A model generated the notes under the pieces. The model was not told the DNA's origin. It made no database searches and saw nothing but the letters and a program-made list of their open reading frames with translations. Below are positions 56,667-63,629 of a DNA stretch of 64,000 bases, piece after piece. The position numbers were made by a program, and so were the translations under genes. The first letter of the stretch is position 1. The number at the start of each line of letters is the position of its first letter. Origin of the DNA: Nitrospira sp. (lineage in GTDB: Bacteria; Nitrospirota; Nitrospiria; Nitrospirales; Nitrospiraceae); assembly GCA_030123605.1 (NCBI GenBank), contig CP126123.1, positions 3,328,001 to 3,392,000 on the forward strand, in the 5' to 3' direction.

Positions 56667-57143
56667 ATGCGCACGTCCTTGAAGATCGGTCTCAGCTTCG
56701 GCCTCACCTCCGGCGTGATTACCACGCTGGGGTTGATGGTAGGACTGCATGCCGGGACCCATTCGCGTCCCGCGGTCCTGGGCGGGATTCTCACCATCGC
56801 CGTCGCCGATGCCATGTCCGATGCGTTGGGCATCCACGTCGCGGAAGAGTCCAAAAACCAAGGGAACGCCGTTGAAATTTGGGAGTCGACCGTGGCGACG
56901 TTCCTGGCCAAGTTCGTGATCGCCGGAACCTTCGCGATCCCTGTGCTGTTCATGCCGCTGGATCTGGCGATGGTCGCCAGCCTGGGCTGGGGTCTGTTGT
57001 TGTTGTCGGGGTTGAGTTATGTCTTGGCGCGGGCGCAGCGGGTCCCTCCCTGGAAGGTCATCGGTGAACATGTCGTGATCGGTCTCTGCGTCGTGGCGAG
57101 CACGCATTATCTGGGCGAGTGGGTGCGGGGCCGCTTTCTGTGA
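56667..57143 (+). CDS. VIT1/CCC1-like small membrane protein
   Basis: A 158-residue membrane protein with about four to five hydrophobic spans. The middle sequence (ILTIAVADAMSDALGIHVAEESKN) resembles the VIT/CCC1 iron-manganese transporter family, where Asp, Ser and Glu residues of the first helices line the metal path. It is shorter than typical VIT proteins (about 230 residues). Metal transport is a suggestion only. Follows the mla group closely. Confidence 0.65.
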   Translation: MRTSLKIGLSFGLTSGVITTLGLMVGLHAGTHSRPAVLGGILTIAVADAMSDALGIHVAEESKNQGNAVEIWESTVATFLAKFVIAGTFAIPVLFMPLDLAMVASLGWGLLLLSGLSYVLARAQRVPPWKVIGEHVVIGLCVVASTHYLGEWVRGRFL

Positions 57144-57286
57144 AGAGGTCGTCACGGATGGGCGGTTCGCCGAGCAGGCGGCGTATGGTTCGATGGCGGC
57201 GCATTCCCTCCGCAACACCTATCGGCTGAATGGACCGGTCGGTCATGGAGCCTGGCTGGATGGAGCAGGAGCGGGGCCGTGATAAC

Positions 57287-57781
57287 ATGCAGTCCGACTA
57301 CGATCACCTGCTGACGCTCTGGACCTCCGGCGTCCGGGACTACCACACGATGTTGTCGGATTACCTGACGGCCAATTCGATCTTCGTCGCGGTCATCGGA
57401 TTGCTGGTCTCGCGGGAATCACAGGCCCTTCCCTTTACCGTCGTCATCGTGCTGCTGAGCGTGTTCGGGATCCTTATGAGTGTGCAGATGGCGATCGTGC
57501 TGGGTCGGTTCTCCGGGCAAAATGCCCTGTGGGAATGGCAACTGCGCGGGATCGAAGCCCTGCCCGGTTGGCAGGAACGAAAGCCGGTGAGCAGTCTCTA
57601 TCGACTGCGCGAACATCGGGAAGCGATCGTGGATGAGGCCAATGAGCCGTCGGTCTTCGAGCCCCCCTGGGCGTTCCGACAACACCGGCAATGGTGGGCG
57701 CACCGGGCGATCAGTTTCCCCTGGTTCTTCGGCACGGTCTACGGTCTCTTTCTGCTCTGGGGACTGACTCAGATGGTGTGA
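57287..57781 (+). CDS. Membrane protein of unknown function
   Basis: About 164 residues with three hydrophobic spans (SIFVAVIGLLVS, FTVVIVLLSVFGILMSVQMAIVL, FFGTVYGLFLLWGL), and a hydrophilic central segment rich in Trp, Arg and Glu. Not recognised as a named family, but the short-TM, RipA-like arrangement recurs in many bacteria. The ATG at 57287 is favoured; a longer start at 57230 has no better ribosome site. Confidence 0.7.
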   Translation: MQSDYDHLLTLWTSGVRDYHTMLSDYLTANSIFVAVIGLLVSRESQALPFTVVIVLLSVFGILMSVQMAIVLGRFSGQNALWEWQLRGIEALPGWQERKPVSSLYRLREHREAIVDEANEPSVFEPPWAFRQHRQWWAHRAISFPWFFGTVYGLFLLWGLTQMV

Positions 57782-57886
57782 TCGAGTTCGGGGTCGTTCT
57801 CGTGCCAATCCCTGCCGAGCGGAGGATCTGTGCAGGGTTTGCGAGGGACAATCACGGCCTCCGTCCCCTCGCACCGGCATCAGCCA

Positions 57887-57994
57887 TCAACCGAGGAAGT
57901 CTTCCGCGGTCAGTTTCAGGACCGCGAAGCCTGTGACCAGCAGCATGACCGTGAGCACCAGCAGTGCGGGATGGAGAAACGGCATCAGCAACAT
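57887..57994 (-). CDS. 35-residue single-span membrane protein (two-component-controlled)
   Basis: Too short for routine gene calling, but well supported: AAGGAGGTGA lies 6 nt before the ATG at 57994. The peptide has one hydrophobic span (PALLVLTVMLLVTGFAVL) and an acidic tail (TAEDFLG). A TATGAA -10 (58042-58037) and three TTCAT motifs at 11-bp spacing precede it. It is transcribed divergently from the OmpR-type regulator. Small single-span proteins of this size often modulate transporters or kinases. The amino-acid sequence resembles the 36-residue protein at 60495 in layout only. Confidence 0.75.
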   Translation of the reverse strand: MLLMPFLHPALLVLTVMLLVTGFAVLKLTAEDFLG

Positions 57995-58036
57995 GGATGT
58001 CACCTCCTTGGCTGGATTGCTTCCGGGGGCACCTGC

Positions 58037-58080
58037 TTCATAACAAACGAAGATGAAGCCATGATGAAGCCTCCATGAAA
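58037..58080 (-). promoter_or_regulatory. Operator and promoter with 11-bp TTCAT repeats (minus strand)
   Basis: ATGAA on the plus strand begins at 58053, 58064 and 58075, i.e. three TTCAT(C/G) motifs on the minus strand at exactly 11-bp steps. Ten nucleotides after the last one comes TATGAA (58042-58037). This is the geometry of OmpR/PhoB-family direct-repeat activator sites. The divergent regulator gene at 58225 could be controlled from the same site. Confidence 0.7.
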
Positions 58081-58224
58081 AATCCTTCATGCAGAGAGAA
58101 AAGACCCATGAGCCTTGTTATGATCGCTCCATCCGATTGAACGTCGATTGAACGACAGCGAGTCGCGCCCATACTACGACGGGCATTGCCGGAGCGCTCC
58201 GTTGTCCTCGAAGCGAGGAGCACC

Positions 58225-58899
58225 ATGCGTATTCTGATCATCGAAGACGACGCCGACCTGGCGCAGTTTCTCCGCAAGGGGTTGGAAGAGGAACAACATA
58301 CGGTTGAGACGGCGGCCGACGGCGAGACGGGGCTGATCCTCGCCACGGACGACAATTTCGACCTGTTGGTCGTGGATGTGATGTTGCCAAAACTGGACGG
58401 CCTGACGCTGTGCCGCCGCCTCCGGGCGAAGGACAAGCGCACGCCGATCCTCCTCTTGACCGCCCGCGACGCGGTGGAGGACAAGGTGGCCGGTTTGGAT
58501 GCGGGCGCGGACGACTATTTGACGAAACCCTTTGCGTTTACGGAATTGGTGGCGCGGGTCCGGGCCTTGCTCCGGCGAGGCGGGCCGCATGCCGGCAGTC
58601 GCCTGAAGGCGAAAGACTTGGAGATGGACCCCGCCTCGCGCCGCGTGTGGCGCGGCGGAAAGGAGATCGTCCTGACCAGCAAGGAATTTGCCCTGTTGGA
58701 ATATCTGTTGCGGAACCGCGACATCGTCCTGACCAGGACGGCGATTCTGGAACGGGTGTGGGGCCTCAATTACGACCCGATGACGAATGTCGTGGACGTG
58801 TACATCCGCTCGTTGCGGGTCAAGATCGACCGGGACTTCACCTCGCCGCTGATCGCCACCGTGCGCGGCGTGGGCTACAAGCTGGAGACGGGCGAGTGA
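58225..58899 (+). CDS. OmpR/PhoB-family response regulator
   Basis: A 224-residue regulator. The receiver domain (1-115) has phospho-Asp51 in DLLVVDVMLP, Thr in LLLTARD and Lys in DYLTKPFAF. The winged-helix output domain (about 130-222) carries LTSKEFALLEYLLRNRD and YDPMTNVVDVYIRSLRVKID. It is of the CopR/CusR/QseB-like size. The ATG at 58225 follows GAGGAGC. Its stop overlaps the kinase start by 4 nt (GTGA). It is the natural candidate for binding the TTCAT repeats on either side. Confidence 0.95.
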   Translation: MRILIIEDDADLAQFLRKGLEEEQHTVETAADGETGLILATDDNFDLLVVDVMLPKLDGLTLCRRLRAKDKRTPILLLTARDAVEDKVAGLDAGADDYLTKPFAFTELVARVRALLRRGGPHAGSRLKAKDLEMDPASRRVWRGGKEIVLTSKEFALLEYLLRNRDIVLTRTAILERVWGLNYDPMTNVVDVYIRSLRVKIDRDFTSPLIATVRGVGYKLETGE

Positions 58900-60320
58900 G
58901 CAGCTTCCGCACCCAGTTCCGCCTCTACACGGTGGCGCTCATCGCCGCGTTGCTCGCCGTCTTCAACTTGCTCGTCTACACCGGATTTCACAGTCTGCTG
59001 CAGCAGTACGTGGACGGCCGCTTGTTCGGGTTTGCGGACACCCTGGCCGAGCTGATCGAACAACGACCGGAGTTGTTGAAGCAGCCGGACCGCGAGATCG
59101 TCGTCCCGCGAGGCGCGCAGGTGACCGACGAACGGATGAAGGAATTGCGGGAACTGTCGCATTCGGTCCATATCCTGGCGCTCGATGGGACGGTCGTATG
59201 GGAAGGCAGTGCGGTGCTGCCGAGGCCGTCGGTGGATGCGGCCCTGTTGGAACGGGGAAAAAAGGGAGAGGTGGTCTATGAGACAATCGAGACCGCTTCA
59301 GGCGCGCCGGTTCGTCAGGTCTTCGTTCCGATCCTGCAGCAGGACGAGGTGCGGTATCTGCTGCAAGCCGAAGAGTCGCTGGTATTTTTCCGGAGAACGC
59401 ATCGAAGCCTCATGGGCCTGCTCATGTTGGGGTCCGTGGCGGTTCTGACCGCCTCTTGGTTTGGCAGCGGATGGCTGGCCCGCAAGGTGCTCGATCCGGT
59501 CGAAGTCTTGAGCCGCACGGCCGAGAGCATTTCCGAATCCGCCCTGCGTTCCAGGGTCAATCTGAATGCACCGTTCGAAGAATTCGAGCGGTTGGCCCAG
59601 GCGTTCAACGGGATGCTCGATCGGTTACAGAAGGCTGCCGAGAGCCAGCGGCGATTCACGGATTATGCGGCCCATGAGATGAAGACGCCGTTGACCGTGA
59701 TGCAAGGGAATCTGGAGGTGGCGTTGCAACGTTCGCGATCGGCCGAAGCATACCGGGATGTGCTCGTCTCCAATCTTGAGCAGGTGCAGCGCCTGATCGT
59801 GTTGACGAGGTCGCTCCTGACCCTGGCCCGCTTCGCCGGCGACCGGCCGCCGGTGGAATTGGCGCCGCTCGCCCTGGAGCCGCTGTTGCGAGAACTGATC
59901 GACGACTTGACGCCGGTGGCGGAGGATCGGCGCATCCGGCTCGTGCTGGAGCAGGAGCCGGTCGGTCCGGTGCTCGGCGACGCGGAGCGCTTGAAACAGG
60001 TATTTATCAACCTCCTGGACAATGCCTTACGGTACACCGATCCCGGCGGCACAGTCACGGTGCATCTGGGCGGTCTGCGGGGCGACGTGCGTGTGGCCGT
60101 GCGGGACACCGGGCAGGGGATCGCCAAGGAGCACCTTCCACTGCTGTTCGAGCGTTTCTACCGGACCGATCCCGCCCGCGCCAGGGATTCGGGCGGCCAC
60201 GGGCTCGGCCTTCCCATCGTGAAGGAAATCGCGGAGGCTCATCACGGGACCATTTCCGTGGAGAGTGAGGTCGGCAAAGGCTCGGTCTTCACCCTGACCT
60301 TGCCGGCCGCGCAGGGCTGA
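58896..60320 (+). CDS. Sensor histidine kinase of the OmpR-type system
   Basis: A 474-residue kinase with two spans (about 12-35 and 168-188). Between them lies a periplasmic sensor domain of about 130 residues; a HAMP linker and HisKA follow with His260 in DYAAHEMKTPLTVMQG. HATPase shows INLLDNALRYTDPGG, VRDTGQGIAKE and GGHGLGLPIVKEIAEAHHG. All catalytic motifs are intact. Start is the GTG at 58896, coupled to the regulator; the longer upstream frame is shadow. Its signal is unknown, but the neighbours suggest envelope stress or metals. Confidence 0.95.
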   Translation: MSSFRTQFRLYTVALIAALLAVFNLLVYTGFHSLLQQYVDGRLFGFADTLAELIEQRPELLKQPDREIVVPRGAQVTDERMKELRELSHSVHILALDGTVVWEGSAVLPRPSVDAALLERGKKGEVVYETIETASGAPVRQVFVPILQQDEVRYLLQAEESLVFFRRTHRSLMGLLMLGSVAVLTASWFGSGWLARKVLDPVEVLSRTAESISESALRSRVNLNAPFEEFERLAQAFNGMLDRLQKAAESQRRFTDYAAHEMKTPLTVMQGNLEVALQRSRSAEAYRDVLVSNLEQVQRLIVLTRSLLTLARFAGDRPPVELAPLALEPLLRELIDDLTPVAEDRRIRLVLEQEPVGPVLGDAERLKQVFINLLDNALRYTDPGGTVTVHLGGLRGDVRVAVRDTGQGIAKEHLPLLFERFYRTDPARARDSGGHGLGLPIVKEIAEAHHGTISVESEVGKGSVFTLTLPAAQG

Positions 60321-60374
60321 GGTTCTGCGCCCCGTTCTCTGGCTTCACCCGACGTCCTCGGATCCGCATCCCTC

Positions 60375-60431
60375 TTCATGAAGAATTCTTCATGCCCCGT
60401 TCATCGTCGGTTCATGTTGCACAGGTACATT
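60375..60431 (+). promoter_or_regulatory. Operator and promoter with 11-bp TTCAT repeats (plus strand)
   Basis: TTCAT begins at 60375, 60389, 60400 and 60411; the last three are 11 bp apart. Ten nucleotides after the last motif comes TACATT (60426-60431), a -10-like element. An 18-bp palindrome (CATGAAGAATTCTTCATG) overlaps the first two. The geometry matches the operator at 58037-58080, so both should answer to the same regulator. The transcript leads to the 36-residue protein at 60495. Confidence 0.7.
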
Positions 60432-60494
60432 GTCACCACGGCAGGGCGGGGTGGGAAGGCTCCTGTCTCGGACAAATTTTGAAAGGTGAACAAG

Positions 60495-60605
60495 ATGAAC
60501 AAAATGAAAACCATAGCGCCGGTCACGCTGCTGCTGATGTTGGTCATTGCCGCGATGGGAGTCATGGTCTTCTGGGGCGTGTCCCTGCTGGATCTCTCAG
60601 AGTGA
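60495..60605 (+). CDS. 36-residue single-span membrane protein (two-component-controlled)
   Basis: A short ORF with GAAAGGTG before its ATG, an N-terminal positive patch (MNKMKT), one hydrophobic span (LLLMLVIAAMGVMVFWGV) and an acidic tail (LLDLSE). It lies just downstream of the TTCAT operator and kinase gene. Too short for routine gene calling. Together with the protein at 57887 it forms a matched pair of tiny membrane proteins around one two-component system. Function unknown. Confidence 0.7.
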   Translation: MNKMKTIAPVTLLLMLVIAAMGVMVFWGVSLLDLSE

Positions 60606-60652
60606 GGGACCTCTCTCTCCCTTGTGGAGAGGTCGGCGGAAAGGGGGATGTC

Positions 60653-60799
60653 ATGCTGATGCTGTTGGCACTGGGAGGGGTCACATGTTTGGTATGGGGG
60701 ACGATACTGAGGTTGTCCTTCCTCGATGAAAAGCAGGTCGGATTGATCGGGATGCCGGTGAAGCGTAAGAGCGACATCGTTCAGGAAGCCGGCTGTTGA
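60653..60799 (+). CDS. 48-residue small membrane protein
   Basis: An ORF with AAAGGGGG before the ATG, one hydrophobic span (MLLALGGVTCLVWGTILRL) and a basic/acidic tail ending in VQEAGC. It starts 47 nt after the preceding small gene, so both are probably on one transcript. No known family is recognised. It could be a transporter subunit or a kinase-linked regulator. Confidence 0.55.
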   Translation: MLMLLALGGVTCLVWGTILRLSFLDEKQVGLIGMPVKRKSDIVQEAGC

Positions 60800-60857
60800 A
60801 GAGCCTCATGACCACAGAGATCGGTTTCTTTCGATAGTTCGATAGAAGGAGGTCATT

Positions 60858-61877
60858 ATGCGGGACTCGTTGGACCCGGGCGGACGGCGTTGGTCGATCG
60901 TGCTGGCAGGAGGAGAAGGCGTCCGGATGCAACCGACGATTAGGCGCTGGCTCGGCCGGACGGTCCCCAAGCAATATTGCCGGTTCATCGGGACGAGGTC
61001 GATGTTCCAACATACCCTCGACCGCATGATGCGGATCACGAGTTCTGCACGCACGGTCGTGGTGGTCGGGCGCGGGCACCAGGAGGCCTGGGGACAGATC
61101 GGTGAGCGGCATCCCGGAATGGTGTTGGTGCAGCCACGCAACGTTGACACGGCGCCGGGGATTTTTCTCCCCTTGACCTACATCCGGGCGCGTGATCCGG
61201 AGGGCACGGTCGTGATTTCTCCCTCCGATCATTTTGTGTTTCCCGAGGAGCGTTTCCTCAGAGAAGTGCTTTATGCCGTCCGGGCAGCCGAGGAGTTGAC
61301 CGACAGGGTGGTGCTGCTTGCGGTCCGGCCGGAGGGGCCGGAACCGGAATACGGGTGGATCAAGCCGGATCATGAACTGGCCTGTTTCGGCGCCCGTCCG
61401 GTGCGGGCCGTCAAGACTTTTTTAGAGAAACCGGAGCCGGCCTTGGCACAGTTGGCCTATGCGTCGGGGGCCTTGTGGAATACGTTCCTGATGGCGGGGA
61501 AGGTGGATCGGTTCTGGAACCTGGGCTGGAGGGTGCTGCCGAAGATGATGGCTCTCTTCGAACGCCTCGGCGAGGCGATCGATACGCCGAAGGAAGCCGA
61601 AGTGTTGCGCGCGATCTATGAGCGCATGCCGCACGTGAGTTTTTCACGCGACCTCCTCGCACAGGTGCCGCGTGAGACGGCGGTGATGGAGATGGAGGGG
61701 CTGTGGTGGAGCGACTGGGGGAGTCCCGAGCGAATCATCGAAACGCTCACCAGGTCGGGCAACAGCGACGCTCCGGTCGTCGAACATCTGAAGGTTGCGG
61801 CGGCAGGCTACCGGCCGTCGGGGGCCGCGGACATCGTCCTGGCGAGCGATGAAGAGGATGAAGCACGGGTCGTATAG
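60858..61877 (+). CDS. Mannose-1-phosphate guanylyltransferase-like nucleotidyltransferase
   Basis: A 339-residue sugar nucleotidyltransferase. The N-terminal nucleotide-binding motif reads LAGGEGVRMQPTIRRWLG, followed by VPKQYCRF, the sugar-site SPSDHFVF and the acidic TFLEKPEP. The pattern is closest to GDP-mannose-forming ManC/AlgA enzymes, but the bacterial C-terminal isomerase half is absent. A role in surface polysaccharide or stress glycan synthesis is possible. GAAGGAGG precedes the ATG. Confidence 0.85.
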   Translation: MRDSLDPGGRRWSIVLAGGEGVRMQPTIRRWLGRTVPKQYCRFIGTRSMFQHTLDRMMRITSSARTVVVVGRGHQEAWGQIGERHPGMVLVQPRNVDTAPGIFLPLTYIRARDPEGTVVISPSDHFVFPEERFLREVLYAVRAAEELTDRVVLLAVRPEGPEPEYGWIKPDHELACFGARPVRAVKTFLEKPEPALAQLAYASGALWNTFLMAGKVDRFWNLGWRVLPKMMALFERLGEAIDTPKEAEVLRAIYERMPHVSFSRDLLAQVPRETAVMEMEGLWWSDWGSPERIIETLTRSGNSDAPVVEHLKVAAAGYRPSGAADIVLASDEEDEARVV

Positions 61878-62238: not shown

Positions 62239-63216
62239 ATGACGACCCCATTGACGACCAGGATCCTGTTTGCGACCGACTTTTCGGATGATGCCGTCCG
62301 GGCGCAAGAATATGCGATGTATCTGGCCACCGCCTGGGATGCCAAGGTGGATGTGCTGCACGTCATCGAAGCGCCGGTCTGGCTGAATGCCGATGCCGCT
62401 ACCGTTGCCGTCGTGGAGCAGGCGCGAAAAGACGCGGCGCAGCGGTTGGAGCAGATCCATGACCAGATGGTGCGCAGCGGTATTTCGGCGGCGGTTCGGC
62501 AGGTGGTGGGAAATCCGGCGGAAGAGGTCGCGCTCGCAGCCAGAGACAACGGTGCGGATCTGTTGGTGTTGGGTGTGCAGGGGCGCACCAATTTATTGTA
62601 TGGGTTGATCGGCAGTACGGTGGAACGGGTCGTGAAGGATGGGCCCTGTCCGGTCCTGGCCGTGCCTGGCATGCGCGACGAGGTAGGACGGCCGATTGAT
62701 GCGCACCCCTATGTTCCGATCCGGAATATCCTGGTGGCGGTGGATTTTTCGAGCCCGTCGTTGAATGCGGCCGAATACGCCATTCAATTGGCCAACAGCC
62801 TTGGGTGCAAGCTCACGTTGATGCATGTGTTGGAACCGCTCTGTTACGACTTGGATTGCGGCCTTGGCCTGATCGAACAGGAGACGAGAAAACGAGATCA
62901 TTGGAACAGGCAACTGTCCGAACTCAAGGACCTCATCATCTCTTTCGGGCTGCCGGCAGAAGTTGAAATCTCAGGAGGTTTCCCTTCCGACGCAATTCTG
63001 GCCAGCACGTTGCGGCATCGGTCCGATCTCGTCGTGATGGGAACGCACGGTCGCCGCGGTGTCTCCGGCCGGCGATTCGGAAGTGTTGCGGAAGCGGTGT
63101 TGCGCCGGGCAACCTGTCCGGTCGTGACCGTGAAGCAACCGAAATTCGCACCGGGACACCGTCGGGTGGTGCCGCAGCAGATGGGAGCCATGGAAACCAA
63201 AGGAGCAGAGCAATGA
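62239..63216 (+). CDS. Tandem universal stress protein
   Basis: A 325-residue protein with two UspA domains. The first (FATDFSDDAVRAQEYAMYL) ends in LGVQGRTNLLYGLIGSTVERV, and the second (VAVDFSSPSLNAAEYAIQL) ends in MGTHGRRGVSGRRFGSVAEAV. Both nucleotide loops are kept. The ATG at 62239 follows AGGAGTACG. Its stop overlaps the next gene's start (ATGA). It is the third tandem stress protein in the window. Confidence 0.92.
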   Translation: MTTPLTTRILFATDFSDDAVRAQEYAMYLATAWDAKVDVLHVIEAPVWLNADAATVAVVEQARKDAAQRLEQIHDQMVRSGISAAVRQVVGNPAEEVALAARDNGADLLVLGVQGRTNLLYGLIGSTVERVVKDGPCPVLAVPGMRDEVGRPIDAHPYVPIRNILVAVDFSSPSLNAAEYAIQLANSLGCKLTLMHVLEPLCYDLDCGLGLIEQETRKRDHWNRQLSELKDLIISFGLPAEVEISGGFPSDAILASTLRHRSDLVVMGTHGRRGVSGRRFGSVAEAVLRRATCPVVTVKQPKFAPGHRRVVPQQMGAMETKGAEQ

Positions 63217-63629
63217 CCCCTCGCGATATTTATATGACCGACTTCGATTTGACCCGTCTCAGGGATGTGCTGAAGGCGCGCCTCAATGCCAAAGTCCGGG
63301 ACCGGGACCATTTGGATAGTTTGGAACATGAGCTTGATCGCGCCCATGTCGTGGATCCGTCTGCGATTCCCCACGATGTGGTCACGATGAATTCTCAAGT
63401 CCGGATCGAAGATGTGGATACCGGCATGGAGAACATTTACACGTTGGTGTTCCCTTCCGATGCCAACCTTGCCGAGAAGAAAATTTCTGTTCTCGCGCCG
63501 ATCGGCACCGCCCTGCTGGGCTGTCGGGCCGGCGGGACGGTGGATTGGCCCGTGCCGGCCGGCAACAGGACGGTGCGCATCAAAGAAGTGTTGTACCAAC
63601 CTGAAGCCGCCGGGGATTACCACCTATAG
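63213..63629 (+). CDS. rnk: Rnk-like nucleoside diphosphate kinase regulator (GreA/GreB C-terminal fold)
   Basis: A 138-residue protein. An N-terminal coiled segment (LTRLRDVLKARLNAKV) is followed by the GreA/GreB-type C-terminal domain (VVTMNSQVRIEDVDTGMENIYTLVFP, ISVLAPIGTALLGCRAG). Rnk binds RNA polymerase and affects nucleoside triphosphate pools and growth control. It is translationally coupled to the stress-protein gene through the ATGA overlap, pointing to a stationary-phase or stress role. Confidence 0.88.
   Translation: MTPRDIYMTDFDLTRLRDVLKARLNAKVRDRDHLDSLEHELDRAHVVDPSAIPHDVVTMNSQVRIEDVDTGMENIYTLVFPSDANLAEKKISVLAPIGTALLGCRAGGTVDWPVPAGNRTVRIKEVLYQPEAAGDYHL

Follow-up and report, generated by a model that had tools for sequence, protein, structure and literature searches.

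Organization of the locus

The locus described here lies in a 64,000-nucleotide stretch of Nitrospira sp. DNA (contig CP126123.1, hereafter the window) and comprises a response regulator gene and a sensor histidine kinase gene flanked by two operator-promoter arrays, each of which precedes a reading frame for a very small protein (Table 1; gene boundaries were taken from ORF reading and tblastn). The placement of the two-component genes between the two sites, claimed in an earlier sequence-only reading, was confirmed.

Table 1. Features of the two-component locus, with positions in the window.
Feature	Position	Strand	Basis or composition
sL, small protein, 35 aa (MLLMPFLHPALLVLTVMLLVTGFAVLKLTAEDFLG), one predicted transmembrane segment	57887..57994	-	Shine-Dalgarno; intact in relatives
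Left operator-promoter	58037..58090	-	ATGAA-N6-(TTCAT-N6)x2-TTCAT-N10-TATGAA
Response regulator, OmpR/PhoB type, near the CusR/CopR heavy-metal subfamily	58225..58899	+	PF00072, PF00486, TIGR01387
Sensor histidine kinase (predicted periplasmic PAS-like sensor domain, HAMP, HisKA, HATPase)	58896..60320	+	
Right operator-promoter	60378..60431	+	ATGAA-N6-(TTCAT-N6)x2-TTCAT-N10-TACATT
sR, small protein, 36 aa (MNKMKTIAPVTLLLMLVIAAMGVMVFWGVSLLDLSE), one predicted transmembrane segment	60495..60605	+	Genus homologues; selection
sR2, second small membrane protein, 48 aa, behind sR	60653..60799	+	Kept in several relatives
ManC-like sugar-1-phosphate nucleotidyltransferase	60858..61877	+	PF00483, 1.5e-16

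The regulator carries a receiver domain (PF00072, 2e-30) and an OmpR-type winged helix (PF00486, 2.8e-26), the domain pair of the TIGR01387 group, and TIGR01387 is its best match among 95 models (259.6 bits, curated cut-off 279.2), with the kinase scoring 272.5 against a cut-off of 292.55 for TIGR01386. Because these scores fall just below the curated cut-offs, both proteins are referred to as related to, rather than members of, the heavy-metal families. TTCAT-type half-sites at the predicted targets are a further trait of the TIGR01387 group seen here; linked efflux is another, and no metal-efflux genes were found among the ten neighbouring proteins scanned. The periplasmic sensor domain of the kinase is predicted to be PAS-like, its model (pLDDT 77) giving generic extracytoplasmic PAS-type matches that name no signal. 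The genome encodes no second regulator of this clade; the next most similar one is 51% identical.

Geometry and uniqueness of the operator arrays

Three TTCAT motifs at exact 11-bp steps, as the sequence-only reading had noticed before both small ORFs, are present at 58053-58079 (minus strand) and 60389-60415 (plus strand), and its spacing of exactly 10 nt from the last TTCAT to a -10 element likewise holds for TATGAA (58042-58037, minus) and TACATT (60426-60431, plus). An inverted fourth half-site, ATGAA, lies exactly N6 5' of the first TTCAT in both operators, so that both window promoters read ATGAA-N6-TTCAT-N6-TTCAT-N6-TTCAT-N10-TA, with three direct half-sites and one inverted; this half-site, a third operator and the 48-aa ORF are additions to the earlier observation. 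When up to two mismatches are allowed, the triple-TTCAT array averages 0.06 matches in shuffles of the window, and none of 100 shuffles reached three.

In PhoB-type activation (pho box), direct repeats at 11-bp steps lie close 5' of the -10 element and replace the -35 element. The arrays described here likewise have direct repeats in roughly 11-bp phase in the place of the -35, at a fixed distance from the -10, and a search for a sigma-70 hexamer pair at these promoters found none, which supports the proposed assignment to OmpR/PhoB-type operators; they differ from PhoB sites in their half-site, in the inverted fourth site and in the regulon.

The genome-wide motif search that had been suggested found three occurrences of the exact triple-TTCAT array in 4,316,411 bp, and the extended motif with its -10 element (at most three mismatches) gave exactly three sites, the reversed control giving none. 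All three precede ORFs for tiny predicted single-span membrane proteins; the third operator lies at genome positions 621358-621411 (locus L001), 2.8 Mb from the window sites. A looser search adds a fourth, weaker site 5' of a glycosyltransferase-like gene.

The possibility that the inverted ATGAA/TTCAT marks a terminator or attenuator was rejected: of the three terminator-like sites listed in 57700-60900, none lies at the right operator, and the single one that overlaps the left operator has a weak 6-pair stem, in a scan that averages 2.8 sites in shuffles.

The small membrane proteins

Each of the small proteins has one hydrophobic stretch of membrane-spanning length according to sequence prediction. 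The sL ORF is preceded by a near-perfect Shine-Dalgarno sequence (AAGGAGGTGA) and that of sR by the Shine-Dalgarno-type AAAGGTG. Behind the third operator stands s3, a protein of 36 aa related to sR (MIWLNERFSISLLYLGLFLVMGLMILWGIWLLDLPG), and after it s3b, another small membrane protein (42 aa) and the counterpart of sR2, with which it aligns weakly, sharing G, T, W, S and D positions. None of sL, sR and sR2 matched a Pfam family at E<=0.1, MgrB included, in a comparison whose power is limited by the short queries.

Absence of conservation, which the sequence-only reading had named as grounds for doubting the small ORFs, is not seen for sR and is seen in part for sL. Homologues of sR occur at E<=2e-6 in 20 of 29 genomes of the genus, Nitrospira in the broad sense (in G113 the match has an internal stop), with none convincing outside the genus, and its pN/pS of 0.46, compared with a mean of 0.89 for column shuffles, indicates that the ORF is under purifying selection. 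sL is intact in L033, L034, L040 and L063, resembles a pseudogene in L043 and L045, and is missing from L036, L037, L041 and L042, where its operator is retained; three copies gave pN 0.10 and pS 0.33 (L040 and L063 were left out, the start pattern having missed them). Since the operator is kept in relatives in which sL has decayed or been lost, the left site may serve autoregulation of the regulator.

The gene for sR is co-directional with the ManC-like gene, which is probably a target co-transcribed with sR-sR2, judging from the gene arrangement: in L036, L040, L041 and L062 no more than about 20 nt separate it from sR, and in L122, L129 and L174, which belong to other genera, it directly follows an array. 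The proposal that single-span micro-proteins are the outputs of the system holds in so far as conserved single-span proteins follow the arrays, but is too narrow, as an array also precedes other genes. In genome G104, two further small-protein operons stand in tandem (L105 7240, 8942), one followed by a hemerythrin-like protein and the other by a ManC paralogue.

The proximity of the ManC-like gene, the array that it bears itself in other genera and the paralogue in G104 favour a role in an envelope response tied to sugar-nucleotide metabolism, in which the small proteins would be inner-membrane adaptor or effector subunits; we give this assignment, the least certain step of the interpretation, nearly even chances. 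The main rival, which we regard as unlikely, is that the small proteins act like MgrB, a 47-aa protein that inhibits PhoQ (PMC2789325), and contact the kinase in its transmembrane or sensor region, damping or amplifying signalling. They resemble MgrB in being single-span proteins of 35-48 aa under predicted two-component control, encoded beside a kinase and, at sequence level, behind a promoter with the operator of the system. In contrast to MgrB, to which they have no sequence match, several unrelated small proteins are found here along with a co-directional enzyme gene; moreover, sR is kept where the kinase is only a 47% homologue, sR paralogues lie far from the two-component system, one of them followed by the ManC paralogue, and sL is dispensable.

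Still more doubtful is the view that the ManC-like gene and the regulator are the ancestral main target, the small ORFs being recent, nearly neutral leaders, as might be read from the array directly 5' of the ManC-like gene in L174, the restriction of sR to one genus and the decay of sL. This is difficult to reconcile with sR, which is under purifying selection, has good ribosome-binding sites and shows conserved motifs, and with the third operon, which consists of only the two small proteins and is followed by a convergent gene.

Other neighbours include an 8xMP-family membrane protein beside sL (57230-57781; PF24838, just at the cut-off), a VIT-family membrane protein upstream (56667-57143), and a double universal stress protein and an Rnk-like regulator downstream of the ManC-like gene (62239-63629). 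The order of the VIT-family, universal stress and Rnk-like neighbours is conserved across the genus.

The probable regulator of the arrays

In an alignment of 18 upstream regions of sR, the right operator forms a conserved block inside otherwise diverged DNA, i.e. a phylogenetic footprint. Two variants of the kinase exist in the genus, an adjacent one (85-100% identical) and a distant homologue whose sensor half is 45-47% identical. Of the 23 genomes with one or the other variant, 20 have sR, as against none of the six without (1.8e-4, a value that ignores kinship among the genomes). Together with the position of the regulator as sole member of its clade and its co-location with arrays elsewhere, the footprint and the co-occurrence support the earlier assignment of the arrays to the regulator encoded at 58225, which is their predicted user.

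This co-location is seen in several gene arrangements, and arrays are associated with this regulator clade. Only the distant kinase homologue was found in ten genus genomes, and in eight of these, whose loci were fetched, a 66-67% identical regulator lies beside the kinase and away from the sR locus, behind a glycosyltransferase-like gene with a degenerate array (GT-like-RR-HK). Homologues with 59-64% identity occur in PepSY-DUF2231-regulator-kinase operons, one in the genus and several in other genera, whose promoters carry an intact (L130, L182, L184) or near-intact array (L065 and L067 being the other loci with such promoters). Such arrays at the promoter of the operons that encode homologous regulators fit autoregulation through the same sequence. 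In the PepSY-DUF2231 operon of L067, the reading frame of the regulator is apparently broken.

It is improbable that the arrays are bound by another regulator than that whose gene lies between them. A DNA motif can be common to several related regulators (PMC11195947), and genome G018 has an array before a lipoprotein-TerC pair but no close relative of the kinase, so that another regulator may use such arrays; set against this are the single regulator of this clade in the window genome, the co-occurrence of sR with the two-component system, and the regulator operons of other genera, which bear such an array at their own promoter.

The earlier proposal that the module is self-contained does not hold as stated: an array also lies 5' of lipoprotein-TerC and other genes, the ManC-like gene is co-directional with sR and bears arrays elsewhere, and of the ten genomes in which only the distant kinase homologue was found, at least eight encode it at another locus. 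Three to four TTCAT repeats precede the lipoprotein-TerC pair in L047 (7385), L048 (8092), L050 (5007), L107 (7457) and L108 (9834), in several relatives' genomes at a distance of some 80-90 kb from the locus of sR. G061 has an exact array (L049 7227) before an APC-type permease, and in L031 and L032 an array stands before a secreted protein whose beginning is rich in His and Met (MSGMDMPHSGHG).

Although the motif is short, the possibility that the arrays are chance matches or a mobile repeat element is negligible and was rejected, as they are present in 42 of 147 family genomes with no match to the reversed pattern in any genome, and the N6 spacers vary between sites while the half-sites and the N10-TA offset stay fixed.

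A proposed envelope-responsive regulon

We consider it likely, as the best overall explanation, that an envelope-sensing two-component system related to CusRS/CopRS activates a small regulon through four-half-site operators. Monomers of the phosphorylated regulator would occupy the inverted half-site and the three co-oriented TTCAT motifs in 11-bp phase, and the last TTCAT, 10 nt from the -10 element, would replace the -35 as in PhoB-type activation. The clear outputs would be three operons, namely sL, sR-sR2 (probably with the ManC-like gene) and s3-s3b, and a weaker output site would precede the glycosyltransferase-like gene. Binding by the regulator, activation of the promoters and translation of the small ORFs are what we infer from these patterns.

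Arrays beyond the genus and relation to known systems

An exact scan for the four-half-site array in a collection in which a single genome represents each bacterial or archaeal species found at least 119 stretches, and the matches listed include Nitrospirota, Verrucomicrobiota, Campylobacterota, Chloroflexota, Acidobacteriota, cyanobacteria and others. Among the matches listed, TANNNT stands at exactly offset 10 in 44 of 83 distinct readable sites (23 of 54 outside Nitrospirota) and at any other offset in 0-5, and a homologue of the window regulator lies within the 8-kb locus at 30 of 85 sites, compared with about 1% expected from its density in the window genome. Nine array-locus regulators all match TIGR01387 best, which is consistent but not independent evidence, because resemblance to the window regulator was the criterion by which they were chosen. 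Tentatively, and with somewhat less than even probability, the four-half-site grammar may be a cross-phylum CopR/CusR-like signature, which in Nitrospira would have repeatedly recruited families of single-span micro-proteins as a dedicated, undescribed membrane output layer of a two-component system.

The sequence-only reading had called the module undescribed. This stands for the micro-proteins, which were unmatched in the searches made and appear undescribed, but not for the half-site: the published site of Synechocystis CopR consists of TTCAT-N4-5-TTCAT direct repeats (PMC4182526), and CusR of E. coli and Pseudomonas binds palindromes of related half-sites (ATTCATnnATGTAAT; AAAATGACAAnnTTGTCATTTT; PMC11195947), so that the operator, built from a TTCAT half-site that was already known, represents a variant of an established type of site. 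Both CopR of the Synechocystis CopRS system and the window regulator are of the heavy-metal type of the OmpR family and are linked to TTCAT direct repeats, but the operators described here have four half-sites, the first of them inverted, with N6 spacers (11-bp phase) and a fixed N10, and precede predicted small membrane proteins rather than copBAC/copMRS. E. coli HprR recognizes the same sequence as CusR (PMC8249747). The window regulator falls into the same subfamily as E. coli CusR and HprR and Pseudomonas CusR, CopR and CzcR by its best model, TIGR01387, at a score below the cut-off; their sites are palindromes, in contrast to the one inverted and three direct half-sites found here, and no copper-efflux genes were seen here among the neighbours scanned. 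In the literature searched, no description was found of the four-site, 11-bp-phased, N10-fixed layout with micro-protein targets, nor of small membrane proteins of Nitrospira two-component systems.

An operator code that can be read in this way offers a means of finding what heavy-metal-type two-component systems control in uncultured phyla. In nitrite oxidizers, the grammar shared by the promoters has, in combination with conservation, pointed to several families of membrane proteins of very small size. The function of small proteins is a long-standing gap, for which the promoter names both candidates and a regulator to test. In locus L157, a protein bearing a Tat-like signal comes after an array (6685) that stands behind a regulator-kinase pair that is 68% (regulator) and 54% (kinase) identical to that of the window.
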